From contig JAICZD010000004.1 in NCBI GenBank assembly GCA_025933855.1, positions 1 to 34,445 on the forward strand: a stretch of DNA of 34,445 bases, read 5' to 3'. The notes under the pieces are model-generated. The model was given only the letters and a program-made list of their open reading frames with translations, made no database searches and was not told where the DNA came from. The DNA comes from Modestobacter sp. Lineage in GTDB: Bacteria > Actinomycetota > Actinomycetes > Mycobacteriales > Geodermatophilaceae. Position numbers and translations under genes: made by a program. Of the stretch, positions 19,745 through 27,931 are shown piece by piece (position 1 is the first letter of the stretch; every line of letters begins with the position of its first letter).

Positions 19745-20401
19745 TCAGGCGGAGCGGCCGGCACCCTGCCGGCCGAGCCGCGCCGCCGCCATCGCCCGGT
19801 CGGCCGCGGCCAGCAGCGACTCGGGCGTGGAGTCCCGCCGGGACAGCGCGACCCCCACGCTGATGCGCACCGGGACGACCAGGTCCGCGGACGGGCGCAG
19901 CGGCGCGGCGAAGGCGGCCGCGATCCGGTCGGCGATGCGCTCGGCACGGGGAGCGCCGGACACTCCGGGGCACAGCACGACGAACGTCTGGCTGCCGATC
20001 CGGGCGACCAGGTCACCCTGGCGGACGGCGGCCACCAGCCGGGCGGCGGCCTCGGTGCGGGCGGTGTCGGCCACGGTCGGACCGTGCGCGTGGTCCAGCG
20101 CGGTGACCCCGTCGGTCTCGCAGCAGAGCAGGGCCAGCCGGTTCCCGTCGGCACCGGCCGCGGCCAGCGACAGCTCCAGGCGGTCGACCAGCAGGCTGCG
20201 CACCGGCAGCCCGGTGAGCGGGTCCGGCATCGTCCGGCGGCGCAGCCGGGCGGCGAACTCGTGCTGGGCGGCCACCACGGCCGCCGTCTGCACCGGCAGA
20301 TCCGGCGCTCCTGCCGTCCGCACCCCGTCCATGACCACTCCCGTCGCGTCCCCGGCCGGTTCCCGGCCCGTGGGGTGGACGTCGGCCCGCCGGCCGGTCA
20401 C
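19745..20401 (-). CDS. GGDEF-domain protein with degenerate active site (GSQTF)
   Basis: DPLTGLPVRSLLVDRLELSL...VRQGDLVARIGSQTFVVLCPG...VRISVGVALSRRDSTPESLLAAADRAMAAAR; overall GGDEF fold motif order with altered A-site. Confidence 0.85.
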   Translation of the reverse strand: MTGRRADVHPTGREPAGDATGVVMDGVRTAGAPDLPVQTAAVVAAQHEFAARLRRRTMPDPLTGLPVRSLLVDRLELSLAAAGADGNRLALLCCETDGVTALDHAHGPTVADTARTEAAARLVAAVRQGDLVARIGSQTFVVLCPGVSGAPRAERIADRIAAAFAAPLRPSADLVVPVRISVGVALSRRDSTPESLLAAADRAMAAARLGRQGAGRSA

Positions 20402-21084: not shown

Positions 21085-21235
21085 ATGCAGAGGTGAGCCT
21101 CCGACCGGCAGCGCACCGACGGGTGGACTGCAGGGCCGAAGGTCTCGCCCACCCGCGCCGCGGCGCGGGCCCGCTGACCGGGTGCACCAGCGCACCAGCA
21201 TGTCGACCAGCGGTCGGGGGGCTACTCCCCTTCTC
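21085..21235 (-). ncRNA. yybP-ykoY (manganese) riboswitch
   Basis: Minus strand shows GAAGGGGAGTAGC (21221-21230 core), GGTCAGCGGGCCCGC, GGTGGGCGAGACCTTCGGCC and the closing arm GGCTCACCTCTGC (about 21090-21099), which pairs with AGGGGAGTAGCC; lies upstream of a GDT1-family gene. Confidence 0.88.
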
Positions 21236-22436
21236 GGTCCGCCAGCCTAGCCGATGCCCCGGGGAAGGCTGCTCCGGGGAAGGCTGCGTGCGCCGCGGCG
21301 GTCGCGGCCCGCAGCACCTCCTTGACCGGCAGCTGCAGGGTGGCGGCCAGCGCGGCCACGTCGTCGAACTCGACGCTCACGTTGACCAGCCGGCCGGACG
21401 AGCGGGCCAGCTTGACCCCGATCCGGCCGCCGAGCACCGTCACACTGTCCTCGGTGCGGTCCAGCGCGACCTTGTCCACCGGCTGCCGGCGCAGCCCGAT
21501 GGTCGAGGTGGCGGCGAACAGCACCTCCTGGACGGCGTCCACCGCGGCGGGCGGGCACAGCACCGACAGGGTGTGCGCCGGGCGGCCCTTCTTCATCAGG
21601 ATCGGGGTCAGCCAGGCGTCCGAGGCGCCGGCGCCCAGCAGGTCGGTGAGCACACCCGGCCACACCCGGGGGTCCAGGTCGTCGACGTTGGCCGCCAGCA
21701 GCAGCGCTCCGGCCGGGCCGGCCGGTTCCCCCAGCACCAGGCGCAGCAGGTTGGGCAGCTCGGCGGGGTCCCGCCCGCCGGCGCCGCTGCCCACCCGCTG
21801 CACCCGCATCGGCGGCAGCGTCGTCCACTCGTCGACGCAAGCGGCCAGCAACGCCGCGCCGGTGGGCGTGCAGGTCTCCGCCGGCACCGGCCCGGCCAGC
21901 ACCGGAACGCCGGCCAGCAGCTCGAGCACCGCCGGACCGGGCACCGGCACCACGCCGTGCGCGCCGCGGGCCGAGCCGCTGCCCAGGGCCACCGGTGAGG
22001 CGGTGAGCCGGTCCAGGGCGAGGTGGGCGAAGCCGGCGACGACCCCGACGACGTCGGCCAGGGCGTCGAGCGCGCCGACCTCGTGGAAGTGCACGTCCTC
22101 GGCGGGAACGCGGTGCACGCGCCCCTCCGCGACGGCCAGCCGCTGGAAGACCGCCAGCGCGCCGTCGCGGACCGCGGCCGGCAGCGGCGCGGCGGACAGC
22201 AGGGCCCGGACGTCGGCCCAGGTGCGGTGCACGTCGCTGGGCGGGGTGTGCACGTGCACCCGGGTGCCGCCGAGCCCGTGCCGGGTGACCGGCTCGGCGG
22301 TCAGCGTCACCGGCTCGACCGGGAGCGCGGCGACGGCAGCGGCGAGCACCTCCAGCGGCACTCCGGCGTCGACCAGCGCGCCGAGCAACATGTCCCCGCT
22401 CGCCCCGGCCGCCAGATCCAGCCACCCGATCGTCAC
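21222..22436 (-). CDS. larC: Nickel pincer cofactor biosynthesis protein LarC (single continuous LarC1+LarC2 ORF)
   Basis: WLDLAAGASGDMLLGALVDAG, EDVHFHEVGALDALADVVG, ETCTPTGAALL, NVDDLDPRVWPGVLTDLLGAGASDAWLTPILMKKGRPAHTLSVLC. Confidence 0.92.
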   Translation of the reverse strand: MTIGWLDLAAGASGDMLLGALVDAGVPLEVLAAAVAALPVEPVTLTAEPVTRHGLGGTRVHVHTPPSDVHRTWADVRALLSAAPLPAAVRDGALAVFQRLAVAEGRVHRVPAEDVHFHEVGALDALADVVGVVAGFAHLALDRLTASPVALGSGSARGAHGVVPVPGPAVLELLAGVPVLAGPVPAETCTPTGAALLAACVDEWTTLPPMRVQRVGSGAGGRDPAELPNLLRLVLGEPAGPAGALLLAANVDDLDPRVWPGVLTDLLGAGASDAWLTPILMKKGRPAHTLSVLCPPAAVDAVQEVLFAATSTIGLRRQPVDKVALDRTEDSVTVLGGRIGVKLARSSGRLVNVSVEFDDVAALAATLQLPVKEVLRAATAAAHAAFPGAAFPGASARLADREGE

Positions 22437-22453: not shown

Positions 22454-23065
22454 ATGGGGTGGTTCGACGAACCGGGCGCCTGGAGCCGGTACAACGCCGG
22501 CCAGGAGCAGCGCCCGCCGCGGCCGCTGGTGCAGGTGCTGCTCGAGCACGCGGGGGACGGCGCCGGCCGGCCGGCGCTGGACCTCGGCTTCGGCGCCGGG
22601 GTGGAGACCGCCCGGCTGCTGCGCCGGGGCTGGCGGGTGCTGGCCGTCGACGCCGACCCGGCGGCCGGGCCGTCCCTGCTCCGCCGGCTGCCGGCCGGGG
22701 ACGCCGCCCGGCTCACCGTCCGCACGCAGGACTTCGCCGCGCTCGACCGGCTGCCCGAGCTGCACCTCGTGCACGCCGCCTGGTCGCTGCCCTACGCCGG
22801 CCGGCACCTGCCGCGGGTGTGGGAGGTGCTGATGGCCGCCCTGCTGCCGGGTGGCTGGCTGGCGTGCGACCTGTTCGGCGAGCGGGACACCACGGCGGAC
22901 GCCGACGACATCGCGAAGCTCACCGATCGGGAGGTGGAGGAGCTGCTGCGCGGGGTGGACGTCGTCCACCGGGAGACCCTGGAGGTGGACGGGACGGCGT
23001 TCACCGGCCCGCAGCACTGGCACGTGCACTCGGTGGTGGCCCGTCGGCTGCCCCATGGGGACTGA
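22454..23065 (+). CDS. Class I SAM-dependent methyltransferase (TehB-like)
   Basis: MGWFDEPGAWSRYNAGQEQRPPRPLVQVLLEH...ALDLGFGAGVETARLLRRGWRVLAVDADPAA motif I. Confidence 0.8.
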   Translation: MGWFDEPGAWSRYNAGQEQRPPRPLVQVLLEHAGDGAGRPALDLGFGAGVETARLLRRGWRVLAVDADPAAGPSLLRRLPAGDAARLTVRTQDFAALDRLPELHLVHAAWSLPYAGRHLPRVWEVLMAALLPGGWLACDLFGERDTTADADDIAKLTDREVEELLRGVDVVHRETLEVDGTAFTGPQHWHVHSVVARRLPHGD

Positions 23066-23094: not shown

Positions 23095-26000
23095 CTACCT
23101 CGCGGTGCGGCGGGCGATGCGGGCGGCGAAGACGCCGGCCGACCAGCCGTTGTCGATGTTGCTGACCACCACGCCCGGCGCAGCCGAATTCAGCATGGTC
23201 AGCAGCGCGCTGAACCCGCCGAACGCGTTGCCCTGACCGGTGGAGGTCGGCACGGCGACGATCGGCACGTCGGTCAGCCCGCTGATCACGCTGGCCAGGG
23301 CGGCGTCCAGACCCGCCACGACGACCAGGCAGTCGGCCTCGGTGAGCAGCGAGCGGTCGGTCAGCAGCGGCCGGATCCGGCTGCCGCCGACGTCGTCGAC
23401 CCGGACGACCTCGGTGCCGGTGACCCGGGCGACGAAGGCGGCCTCGGCCGCGATCGGGGTGTCGCCGCTGCTGGCGCAGAGCACGCCCACCCGGCCCACC
23501 GGTTCCGGCAGCGGGCCGACGGCGGCGGACATCGCGGCGGCGTCCATCGTGGTGTACGCGTCGTGCTCGCTGGCCAGCGCGACCAGCGTGTCGGCGCCGG
23601 CCCGGACCACCACGGCGGGACGGTCGGGGAACTCCCGTCGGGCCGCACGCACCAGGGCCAGGACCTGCTCGGTGCTGCGCCCGGTGCCCCAGATGATGTC
23701 CGGCCCGAACGAGGCGGTCTCGTTCGGCACGGGAACGCCCGCCGGCGCCACGGGTACCGGCGTGCCTGCGGCTGCGGTGACCTGCCCGGTCGCGGAGCCG
23801 GTCACCGTGCTGGCGGGGGCCACCGGGGTTACCGGGGCTACCGGGGCCAGCGGCGGGATGGCGGCGGGGCCGACCGTCCGGCCGGCCGTGCGCGGCGGGC
23901 CGAAGAGCTCGTCCAGCGGGCTGCGGGGGCGCACCGGCTCGTCGGCCGGGGGCTCGACCAGCAGCGGGGCGAAGCCACCGGCGTCGTCGGCGGGGTCGTG
24001 CTCCGGCCGGTCGGCGGGGATCTCGTCCAGCGGGTGCGCGCTCACGGCAGCGACCCTAACCGCCGGCGCAGCCGTTCCCGGGACCTCGGCGGCGGTCGTG
24101 TCGGGGCTGCTCACCGCACCCTCCGGCATCGTGCCGTCGAGCGCCGTGCCATCCACGACGGTGCCCTCGACGGCGAGGGCGGGGCCGTCGCCGGCGCGGG
24201 TCTGGGTCACTCCGGACAGCCGCACGACGCGGTCCCGGCCGCCGCGCTTGGCCTCGTACAGCACCCCGTCGGCGGCGGCGAACAGCGTTCGCCGGTCGTC
24301 ACCGCGGGCGGCCGAGGCGACGCCCACGCTGATCGTGACCGGGACCTCGACGTCCAGGGCCGACCAGTCGTGCGCGGCGATCGCGCGGCGGATGCGTTCC
24401 ATCGCCCGCTCCGCCTGCTCGGCGGTGGTGTCCGGCAGCAGGATGACGAACTCGTCCCCGGCCCAGCGGCACACCTCGTCGGTGTCCCGGCAGCCATCGA
24501 CGAGCAGCTGCCCGACCGCCCGCAGCACGGCATCGCCGCCGGGATGGCCGGCGGCGTCGTTGATCGACTTGAACCGGTCGATGTCGACGACCGCCAGCGC
24601 GGGCGCGCCGCAGCCGAGCAGGCCGTCCAGCCGGGCCTCGGCGTAGCGGCGGTTGGGGAGGTGGGTCAGCGGGTCCTCGTAGGCCTGCCGGCGCAGCTGC
24701 CCGGCGGCCCGCTCGGTCTCCAGCAGGCTCTTGCGCCGGCCGAACAGCTCCACCCAGCGGGTGCGCCGCTCGTCGACCCGGTCCAGCTCGTCGGCGAGGT
24801 AGGCCTGCAGGTACGGCAGCGCGCGGGCCGCGTCGTCCAGCTCGGCGTGCAGGGTGCACAGCTCCCGCAGCGCCGCCCGGCGCACCCGCGGCAGGCCGTT
24901 CTCGGTGGCCAGGGCCAGGGCGGTGGCCAGGTGGTCGTCGGCCGCCGGCCCGTCGCCGGCCCGGCGCCGCGCCCGGCCCCGCCCCCGCTCCGCGGCGGCG
25001 CGCCGGGCCCGGTCCTCCGGCGCGGGGGCCGCGGTCCCCCCCGACCGCAGCAGCGCGACCGCCGCGGGATGGTCCCCGAGCCCGACCAGCGCCCAGCCGT
25101 GCACCACCTGCGCGTCGAGCACGCCGGGATCACCGGCCGTCAGCCGGCCGAGCGCCCGGACGGCGAGGTCGCGGGCCCGCGCGAAGTGCGGCGCGGCGGC
25201 CTCGGGGCCGCCGTCCTCGAGCAGGCCCTCGCCGATCTCCGCGCAGAGCGCGGCGAGCTGGGTGGCGGCGTCGGCGGCGAGCGCGCGCGGACGGGGCCCG
25301 GACGCGCCCGCGGTGATCGCCAGCTCGGCAGCGGCCTCCGCGGCGTCCGCGGCGCGGCGCTGGTAGTCCAGGGCCAGCGGCATCAGCTCGAGGTCGGCCA
25401 GGACGCCGGCCAGCGAGCCGAGGGTGTGCACGAGCAGCGGGGTCGCCGGCAGGTTCGGGTCCAGCAGGCTCGCGGCCTCCACCGCCTCGTCCATGGCCGC
25501 GTCGACCCGGCGGGACAGCAGCTCGATCCGGGCGTGCCGGACCAGCCCCGCGGCGCGCTGCAGGTCGTCGTCCTGACCGTCGAAGGCCGCCCGGGCGGAG
25601 CGGACCAGCGCGATGGCCCGCGCGGCATGGCCGGCGGACTCGGCTCGGGCTCGGGCGTGGGCGTGGAGGTCGGCGTCGGAGTCGGACGCGCCGGCGTCGG
25701 GCCGGTCGCCGTGCAGCTCGGCGACGCCCTCGTGCAGGTCCAGCGCGCCGTCCTGCTCCGGGCCGCCCTCGGTCAGCGGCTCGCCGAGCAGCGAGTAGCC
25801 GGCCAGCCGCAACCGGCGTACCAGCAGCTCCGCCCGCAGCGTGTCGGCCCAGGCGCGGGCCAGCGAGGTCAGCGGCGCGCCGCCCAGCTCACCGACCGCG
25901 GTGGTGTGCGGCGGCAGGGAGCTGTCGATGTCGGACAGCAGCGCCTCGGCGGTGTCCAGTTGCCAGGTGGCCAGCGCCGAGCTCACCTGCTGGTGCAGGA

Positions 26001-26127
26001 CCCCGGGTGGCACGAGCGCACTGTGCCTGGTTCGCGCCGCGGAGTCACGCACCGCGCCGGTGGCACGCCGGGCACGACCCGGGGTGCCGGTCGAGCTGCG
26101 CTGCCCGCGGGGGGTGCGCAGTGTCAC
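23095..26127 (-). CDS. Multidomain protein: helical-repeat-like N-terminus, GGDEF (AGDEF) domain, low-complexity linker, C-terminal LarB/PurE-like domain
   Basis: One uninterrupted 1010-aa frame: DPLTHLPNRRYAEARL...RDTDEVCRWAGDEFVILLP, then about 160 aa of Pro/Ala/Val/Thr-rich linker, then FGPDIIWGTGRSTEQVLALV...GVLCASSGDTPIAAEAAFVARVTGTEVVRVDDVGG...VVVAGLDAALASVISGLTDVPIVAVPTSTGQGNAFGGFSALLTMLNSAAPGVVVSNIDNGWSAGVFAARIAR. Confidence 0.87.
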   Translation of the reverse strand: MTLRTPRGQRSSTGTPGRARRATGAVRDSAARTRHSALVPPGVLHQQVSSALATWQLDTAEALLSDIDSSLPPHTTAVGELGGAPLTSLARAWADTLRAELLVRRLRLAGYSLLGEPLTEGGPEQDGALDLHEGVAELHGDRPDAGASDSDADLHAHARARAESAGHAARAIALVRSARAAFDGQDDDLQRAAGLVRHARIELLSRRVDAAMDEAVEAASLLDPNLPATPLLVHTLGSLAGVLADLELMPLALDYQRRAADAAEAAAELAITAGASGPRPRALAADAATQLAALCAEIGEGLLEDGGPEAAAPHFARARDLAVRALGRLTAGDPGVLDAQVVHGWALVGLGDHPAAVALLRSGGTAAPAPEDRARRAAAERGRGRARRRAGDGPAADDHLATALALATENGLPRVRRAALRELCTLHAELDDAARALPYLQAYLADELDRVDERRTRWVELFGRRKSLLETERAAGQLRRQAYEDPLTHLPNRRYAEARLDGLLGCGAPALAVVDIDRFKSINDAAGHPGGDAVLRAVGQLLVDGCRDTDEVCRWAGDEFVILLPDTTAEQAERAMERIRRAIAAHDWSALDVEVPVTISVGVASAARGDDRRTLFAAADGVLYEAKRGGRDRVVRLSGVTQTRAGDGPALAVEGTVVDGTALDGTMPEGAVSSPDTTAAEVPGTAAPAVRVAAVSAHPLDEIPADRPEHDPADDAGGFAPLLVEPPADEPVRPRSPLDELFGPPRTAGRTVGPAAIPPLAPVAPVTPVAPASTVTGSATGQVTAAAGTPVPVAPAGVPVPNETASFGPDIIWGTGRSTEQVLALVRAARREFPDRPAVVVRAGADTLVALASEHDAYTTMDAAAMSAAVGPLPEPVGRVGVLCASSGDTPIAAEAAFVARVTGTEVVRVDDVGGSRIRPLLTDRSLLTEADCLVVVAGLDAALASVISGLTDVPIVAVPTSTGQGNAFGGFSALLTMLNSAAPGVVVSNIDNGWSAGVFAARIARRTAR

Positions 26128-26158: not shown

Positions 26159-27931
26159 TCACGAGGCGACCTCGCCGTCGTCGAACGCCCAGCCCGGCGG
26201 TCGGGTTGCCCGGCTGCCCAGCACGTCGGCGACCAGCTGGTCGACCGACGCGTGCAGCGCGGGGGCAGGCCCGCGCGGCCGCGCCGCCGGCGGTCCGGTG
26301 GAGCCGGCCCGGACCCGGTTGCGCCCGCTGCGCTTGGCCGCGAACAGGTGCAGGTCGGCGGCGTCGAACAGCGTCCGCCACGACCCGGCCGTGCCGGGGG
26401 AGCCGGGGACGGCGGTCGCGACGCCGATGCTGACCGTCAACGGCCGGGACAGCTCCGCCGCGGCCCAGTCGTGGTCGGCGACGGCGGTCCGCAGCCGCTC
26501 CATGGCCACCACGGCCTGCGGCTCGGCGGTGGACGGCAGCAGCACCAGGAACTCGTCGCCGGCCCAGCGGTAGACCTCGTCGCCGTGCCGGCTGTGCCGC
26601 CGCAGCAGTTCCGCCACCCGGCGCAGGGCCACGTCGCCGTGCAGGTGGGAATGGGCGTCGTTGACCGCCTTGAAGCCGTCGACGTCGACCACGGCCAGCG
26701 ACACCGGCCCGCGGTGGAAGTCCAGCTCGGCCAGCCGTCGCTCGGCGCTGCGCCGGTTGCCCAGCCCGGTGAGCGGGTCCTCCAGGGCGTGCCGGCGCAG
26801 CACCGCCGTCTGCCGCTGCGCGTCGTGCAACCGGCTGCGCCGCACGAACATCTCCGCCCACACCTCCTGGCCGCGCAGGTGCACCCGGGTGGTCTCGGCG
26901 CGGTAGGCATCCAGCCAGTGCAGCGCCTCGACGGTGCGGCCCGCCGCCGCCGTGGTCTGCCCGAGCTCGAGCAGGCACTGCCGGTAGCGACGGTGGTCCT
27001 CGACGGCGGCGAAGGCGCCGGCGGCGGCGACCAGCAACTCGGTGGCCTCTTCCTCGGCCGGCTGCCGGGCGGCGCCGGGGGCTTGCAGCCGGACCAGCAG
27101 CCGGGCGAGCACCAGGTCCGCGTAGCCCAGCAGCCACAGGCCGCCGTCGGCCGCCACCCGGCCGCGGACCCGGCGCAGCGGGGCCAGCGCGTCCTGCGGC
27201 CGGCCGGTGAGGCTCATCGCCCAGGCGGTGACGACGGCCAGCAGGTCCTCGTCCGGCTCCGGCGGCGTCCAGGACAGCTCCCGCGCAGCACTCGCGCAGG
27301 TCAACGCCGTCTGCGCGAGATCGCGCGACCGCCGCTCGTCCCCCCGGCGGTGCACCGTCTGGGCCAGCTCCGCGTGCTGCTGGGCGCACAGCCGCAGCAG
27401 CTGCCAGCGGTCGTCCAGGCCCGGCAGCGCCTGCGCCACCCGTGATCCGCGCAGCGCCTGGTCGGCGGCGAGCTCCTCCAGGTCCAGCAGGGTGAGGGCG
27501 AGCGACAGCCAGGAGTGCGCCTGGTGCAGCGCACGGGTGGGTTCCGCGCCGCCGAGCTGGTCGGCCAGCAGGCTGGCGTCCACGGCCAGGCGCAGAGCGG
27601 CGTCCAGCCGGTCCGCCCCCACCTCGACGTGGGCCAGGTAGGCCAGGGTCAACGCCCGCTCGGCCGTGGGCGGGCAGTGGTCCAGAGCGGCGCGCGCGGC
27701 GGTCACGGCGACCGCCGCGGCGTCCGGGTCGCCGTCCAGGAGCCGCGCCCGAGCGGTGAAGGCGCTGCCCCAGGCGTCCCAGTGCGGCCGACCGGTGCCG
27801 GAGAAGGAGCCCGCCACCCGGTCGAACTCGTCGGCGAAGCCACGGGCGTCCGGCACGCCGCTGGCGGCCAGCAGCTGCCAGCGGGCCGACTCGAGCGCCT
27901 GCTCGTCGACGGCGTCGGACCGCGGGGTCAC
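26159..27931 (-). CDS. GGDEF (AGDEF) diguanylate cyclase-like protein with TPR-like N-terminus
   Basis: DPLTGLGNRRSAERRLAELDF...AVVDVDGFKAVNDAHSHLHGDVALRRVAELLRRHSRHGDEVYRWAGDEFLVLLPS; GTG preceded by GGAGGAG. Confidence 0.9.
   Translation of the reverse strand: MTPRSDAVDEQALESARWQLLAASGVPDARGFADEFDRVAGSFSGTGRPHWDAWGSAFTARARLLDGDPDAAAVAVTAARAALDHCPPTAERALTLAYLAHVEVGADRLDAALRLAVDASLLADQLGGAEPTRALHQAHSWLSLALTLLDLEELAADQALRGSRVAQALPGLDDRWQLLRLCAQQHAELAQTVHRRGDERRSRDLAQTALTCASAARELSWTPPEPDEDLLAVVTAWAMSLTGRPQDALAPLRRVRGRVAADGGLWLLGYADLVLARLLVRLQAPGAARQPAEEEATELLVAAAGAFAAVEDHRRYRQCLLELGQTTAAAGRTVEALHWLDAYRAETTRVHLRGQEVWAEMFVRRSRLHDAQRQTAVLRRHALEDPLTGLGNRRSAERRLAELDFHRGPVSLAVVDVDGFKAVNDAHSHLHGDVALRRVAELLRRHSRHGDEVYRWAGDEFLVLLPSTAEPQAVVAMERLRTAVADHDWAAAELSRPLTVSIGVATAVPGSPGTAGSWRTLFDAADLHLFAAKRSGRNRVRAGSTGPPAARPRGPAPALHASVDQLVADVLGSRATRPPGWAFDDGEVAS

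Follow-up and report, generated by a model that had tools for sequence, protein, structure and literature searches.

A predicted diguanylate cyclase of the Geodermatophilaceae carries a LarB-derived domain that appears to have lost catalysis

We analysed a window of 34,445 nucleotides from Modestobacter sp. (assembly GCA_025933855.1, contig JAICZD010000004.1, positions 1–34,445), and all coordinates given here are positions in this window. The minus strand is open throughout positions 23095–26127 and encodes a protein of 1010 aa from a GTG whose status as the start codon is uncertain (the frame between stops extends to 26436). The N-terminal part, which the preliminary description of this DNA had overlooked, is a predicted TPR alpha-solenoid (residues ~40–470; 24718–26010). 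It was modelled by AlphaFold2 as all-helical (pLDDT 85.6) and has the helix-turn-helix repeat solenoid of TPR proteins, resembling LGN, Rap and MalT domain III in Foldseek; matches to Pfam TPR families are weak in most homologues, and the best is TPR_MalT with an E-value of 5.8e-10. It is followed by a GGDEF domain (residues 482–633; 24229–24684; Pfam E 3.9e-38, 131.2 bits versus a cut-off of 23.8), in which the I-site RDTD (residues 547–550; 24478–24489) and the A-site AGDEF (residues 556–560; 24448–24462) were found where they had been described before. An in-frame linker with conserved short motifs (residues 641–807; 23707–24207) lies within a region predicted to be disordered (residues 617–807, pLDDT <50) and leads into a LarB-like domain of the PurE/AIRC superfamily at the C terminus (residues 808–1006; 23110–23706). 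This domain is matched by NCBIfam LarB (NF033503; residues 809–1006, E 6.3e-49), by Pfam AIRC (residues 880–1006) and, in a phmmer comparison, by the solved LarB of L. plantarum (7mj0; E 1.5e-36). From the full-length AlphaFold model, which is of poor quality (pLDDT 62), we took no more than the linker disorder and the secondary structure within the LarB domain.

Directly upstream on the same strand (26159–27931) lies a gene for a protein of 590 aa, a TPR-GGDEF paralogue which corresponds to the fusion protein minus its LarB domain and also carries an AGDEF motif (Pfam GGDEF E 5e-30); both genes are probably part of the same operon. Downstream, and again on the minus strand, we found larC (nickel insertion; 21222–22436; TIGR00299 E 2.5e-58). 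Between the fusion and larC, the opposite strand carries a methyltransferase-like gene (22454–23065, plus strand) that occurs only in this Modestobacter genome and a few close relatives. A third GGDEF-family protein is encoded near a GDT1-type gene (19745–20401, minus strand; Pfam E 3.8e-22) and has a degenerate active site with IGSQTF replacing GGDEF.

Taken by itself, the open frame is weak evidence for a fusion, because the GC content is 77–78% and a spurious frame of 1703 aa runs antisense to it. The proposal of the preliminary description that GGDEF and LarB are joined in a single ORF without an intervening stop was nevertheless confirmed by the relatives. One scan recovered 78 loci with the same protein in Modestobacter, Blastococcus, Geodermatophilus, Klenkia, Goekera and Trujillonella, and both domains share one frame in essentially all loci not truncated by a contig end, at about 80 loci. 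This rules out an assembly error or frameshift as the source of the fusion and disposes of the concern, raised earlier, that orthologues might be encoded as two separate genes. The linker stays in frame despite 62 distinct aligned lengths among 82 rows (most of them 66–172 aa), shares the motifs GGFAPLLVEP and PLDELFG, and has a GC3 of 0.92 in the fusion frame. We regard the fusion as real because of these loci, the conserved frame and motifs of the linker, and the purifying selection on the LarB part described below. Hence, we give next to no credence to the view that it is not one functional protein, be it that the frame is artefactual or that an internal start yields a LarB product of its own. 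That view could draw on a GTG at residue 672, which is preceded by a Shine-Dalgarno-like GGAGG, and on two one-contig genomes (G039, locus L124; G055, locus L125) in which the frame is broken at different places. However, no Shine-Dalgarno-like start was seen close before the LarB domain, and the two breaks are probably assembly indels, since larE is likewise broken in G055.

The distribution of the fusion protein was determined with a profile (A1) built from 29 fused LarB domains, which gave at least 245 bits for fused copies and at most 236 bits for stand-alone LarBs. It placed the protein in about 88 of the 99 Geodermatophilaceae genomes, to which a divergent fused copy in G002 (L150) is to be added, while three genera of the family (g6, g8 and g10) have stand-alone LarB only. 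Among 200 order-level and 395 class-level genomes, no fused domain was found outside the family. For these genomes, a widespread occurrence in Actinobacteria is thereby ruled out, and the co-occurrence of both domains in one protein, for which the preliminary description had suggested a search across this group, holds within Geodermatophilaceae but was not seen beyond.

The cyclase half of the protein is well preserved. In 36 aligned homologues, the GGDEF columns for metal and GTP binding, D515, D517, F519, K520, N523, D524, H528, D532 and D558-E559 are invariant, and the I-site RxxD is present in 81 of 81 aligned rows; the A-site reads AGDEF in 76 of these rows and AGDEY in five. Moreover, the AGDEF enzyme VCA0965 is active as a diguanylate cyclase (PMC3974145). 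Because the catalytic columns and the I-site are intact and VCA0965 is active, the fusion protein is probably an active, feedback-inhibited diguanylate cyclase, with the caution that AGDEF is a minority motif and that five homologues carry AGDEY. It thus has the complete catalytic columns and the RxxD I-site in common with the diguanylate cyclases (PF00990; PleD, VCA0965), but is set apart from them by its C-terminal LarB-type domain.

The C-terminal domain is homologous to LarB over ~200 aa, with 39% identity to the L. plantarum protein; its profile match begins at position 12, and a short N-terminal segment of LarB is absent. At 166.5 bits (171.5 bits in a six-frame search), it stays below the LarB family cut-off of 175 bits. 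PurE/AIRC proteins (PF00731) have the same superfamily fold, but the match to 2ywx is weak (E 5e-7) and the fused domain resembles LarB far more closely; the Modestobacter genome has another PurE-type match apart from it (G000:C5). For a comparison of residues, we aligned 33 stand-alone and 74 fused LarB domains. Position 221, that of the catalytic Cys of L. plantarum LarB (the number was read from the 7mj0 alignment and agrees with the Rankin 2021 work), is Cys in 33 of 33 stand-alone LarBs and in none of the 74 fused domains. The latter have Ala (54), Ser (9), Gly (4), Thr (3) or Pro (2) instead, and two rows are without a residue at this position, one owing to a gap and one to truncation by a contig end. 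In the window protein the position is occupied by Ala982 (23182–23184), a loss that the motif quoted in the preliminary description, MLNS..PG, had hidden under its dots. Ser127 is missing as well from all 74 fused domains, 71 of which have Gly or Ala, including Gly888 (23464–23466) in the window. In LarB, an S127A change is reported to slow NaAD hydrolysis. The loss of Ser127 is supporting evidence only and not decisive, because L152, a Cys-bearing LarB, also has Ala there. For LarB itself, the title of Rankin 2021, a paper cited in PMC11796402, gives a cysteinyl-pyridine intermediate as the mechanism; Cys221 is the residue that forms this covalent adduct.

Taken over its full length, the domain is conserved, with a mean column identity of 75%. 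The core residues Asp128, Glu134, Pro199-Thr200-Ser201, Asp231 and Gly233 are kept in common with LarB, whereas patches conserved in LarB (154–156, 158–159, 204–205 and 234–235) are altered. Furthermore, several residues are conserved in the fused set only, namely Arg817 (LarB Lys57), Gly915-Ser916-Arg917 (23377–23385; replacing LarB Val154-Ala155-Gly156), Cys933 and Ala942 (Gly181), and H855 is nearly invariant together with the polar or charged R817, R917 and C933. The idea that Arg917 mimics the phosphate-binding Arg of PurE (SAHR) was dropped, as phmmer and MAFFT align this loop differently. Judged from its sequence, the fused domain appears to have lost LarB catalysis.

The phylogenetic profile points in the same direction. 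A Cys-bearing LarB and LarE occur together in 66 of the 99 genomes and are both absent from the other 33 (the Cys of the stand-alone LarBs was read in 33 sequences rather than for all 66 genomes; G070 matches LarE only partially, and the completeness of G057 is 73%). The fused protein is kept in 32 of the 33 genomes without these proteins, and no genome combines LarE with a fused LarB alone. In the Modestobacter genome, NPN is served by another Cys-bearing larB, which shares a contig with larE (G000:C66). Because of the 66/66 co-occurrence and the retention of the fusion in NPN-less genomes, the fused LarB, by this profile, in no genome takes the place of LarB and is independent of the NPN pathway; together with the missing residues, this rules out a functional LarB enzyme as far as sequences can tell. 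Moreover, we compared G049 and G044 (loci L129 and L130), two members of the window's genus that lack the NPN pathway. Their dN/dS (Nei-Gojobori, absolute values being rough at 77% GC) is 0.084 for the LarB domain versus 0.434 for the linker, and the fused domain therefore looks to be under purifying selection in NPN-less genomes. As a separate observation, a LarA match (PF09861) was found in only 30 of the 99 genomes versus LarB plus LarE in 66, and in many Geodermatophilaceae NPN would seem to be made for some other user protein.

Our data also indicate how the fusion may have arisen. The fused domains group in a single clade with 100/100 support, and each of the 200 bootstrap trees gives them one origin. 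Where a fused locus has sufficient flanking sequence, a TPR-GGDEF paralogue almost always lies upstream of the fusion, a pairing conserved across the family, and the usual gene order in the fusion-bearing genera is paralogue, fusion and often larC, which adjoins the fusion in many relatives (about 30–250 bp) and does not occur at the locus in many others. The basal genera g8 and g10 as well as outgroup families have a stand-alone, Cys221-bearing larB adjoining larC, with no GGDEF gene found upstream of it, which is likely the pre-fusion state. Tree and synteny are most simply explained if, early in the history of the Geodermatophilaceae, the ancestral larB of a larB-larC operon had a TPR-GGDEF gene joined to its front end. 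The fused LarB would then have lost catalysis, with NPN synthesis, where kept, being served by a second Cys-bearing larB elsewhere, and many loci would later have lost larC while retaining the fusion. Today, 25 genomes have the fusion without any larC, and seven have larC without LarB or LarE, in five of which it has diverged (120–158 bits). Several Blastococcus-type genomes without LarB and LarE (loci L126, L132 and L133) retain an intact, diverged larC adjoining the fusion; the product of this larC has ~60% identity to the window LarC versus the usual 74–85%; these genes may be decaying or repurposed.

We consider it reasonably likely that the protein acts as a diguanylate cyclase under the control of two modules, the N-terminal TPR solenoid and a C-terminal, LarB-derived noncatalytic control domain that binds a ligand, oligomerises, or both. 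The LarB pocket would still accommodate a small molecule, for which NaAD, NAD or another pyridine nucleotide is the simplest candidate. Either such binding or an oligomerisation of the PurE kind would alter the pairing of the GGDEF domains and thereby set the c-di-GMP output, with the TPR domain as a putative second input for peptides or proteins. This suggests that an old enzyme, LarB, has been turned into a sensor or scaffold for a signalling enzyme. Binding of NaAD or NAD is the simplest guess but is not assured, because several LarB-conserved patches are changed, and the LarB-like domain may be only structural. We put forward tentatively an exaptation of LarB, within one bacterial family, into an allosteric receptor for pyridine nucleotides that directly controls c-di-GMP synthesis. 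The preliminary description had proposed a coupling of c-di-GMP signalling to Lar-type chemistry or sensing; of these, sensing is the best reading, whereas chemistry is at odds with the absence of Cys221 and with the genomes that have the fusion and no NPN pathway.

Three other readings were weighed against a regulated cyclase with a ligand-responsive LarB-like domain. In a rather doubtful but serious one, this domain is a ligand-free scaffold that pairs the GGDEF domains by PurE/LarB-type oligomerisation, and the TPR region is the sensor. Retention of the core residues (D128, E134, PTS199–201, D231 and G233) along with loss of the catalytic ones would fit this, as would the likeness of the solenoid to the peptide- or protein-binding TPR proteins Rap and LGN; however, the new, nearly invariant polar and charged signature (R817, R917, C933 and H855) exceeds what a scaffold apparently needs, and conservation extends over the whole domain. 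Extremely improbable, in spite of the clear LarB homology and of larC adjoining the fusion in the window and many relatives, is a bifunctional enzyme that still makes P2CMN or a related nucleotide and ties NPN synthesis to c-di-GMP: no fused copy has retained the catalytic Cys or Ser127, LarE is never accompanied by a fused LarB alone, 32 genomes have the fusion without LarE, and the fusion stays at the many loci from which larC is gone. The position of larC directly after the fusion in many loci, and its retention without LarB or LarE in some genomes, might instead indicate that the fused protein physically works with LarC and links c-di-GMP signalling to nickel handling. We regard this as very unlikely, since descent from a larB-larC operon explains the adjacency, the fusion often occurs where larC is lacking altogether, and most of the remaining LarB/LarE-less larC genes have diverged.

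Like other enzyme-derived regulatory (pseudoenzyme) domains, the LarB-like domain of our preferred reading, the regulated cyclase, has lost catalytic residues while fold and conservation are kept. No LarB-derived example of such a domain was found in the literature searched. Nor did this search, which covered only a minority of subscription papers, reveal a LarB-GGDEF fusion, in agreement with the earlier impression that the architecture had not been described, and a review of c-di-GMP sensory domains names no LarB, AIRC or PurE sensor (PMC8846402). The novelty would lie in a diguanylate cyclase carrying a new type of control domain. If this domain is a pyridine-nucleotide receptor, an input to c-di-GMP signalling would read the status of the NAD pathway through a dead enzyme, while basal genera still display the larB-larC operon as it was before the fusion. 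A diguanylate cyclase regulated by a LarB-derived domain would also illustrate, with good sampling, how an enzyme turns into a regulatory module in nature; present-day genomes show each stage, from the ancestral state through the fusion and the loss of catalytic residues to the later independence from the pathway.

Geodermatophilaceae are actinobacteria of soil and rock and are hardy against desiccation and radiation. The c-di-GMP effector RsiG is present in the family in its twin-motif form in 16 of 16 species (PMC8325347), and because the fusion protein is near-universal there, its input signal would be relevant to the life cycle of these bacteria. For annotation, fused proteins are a trap, as they could be mis-scored as the LarB of the NPN pathway; the fused domain of one relative (G049) exceeds the LarB family cut-off with 178.7 bits.
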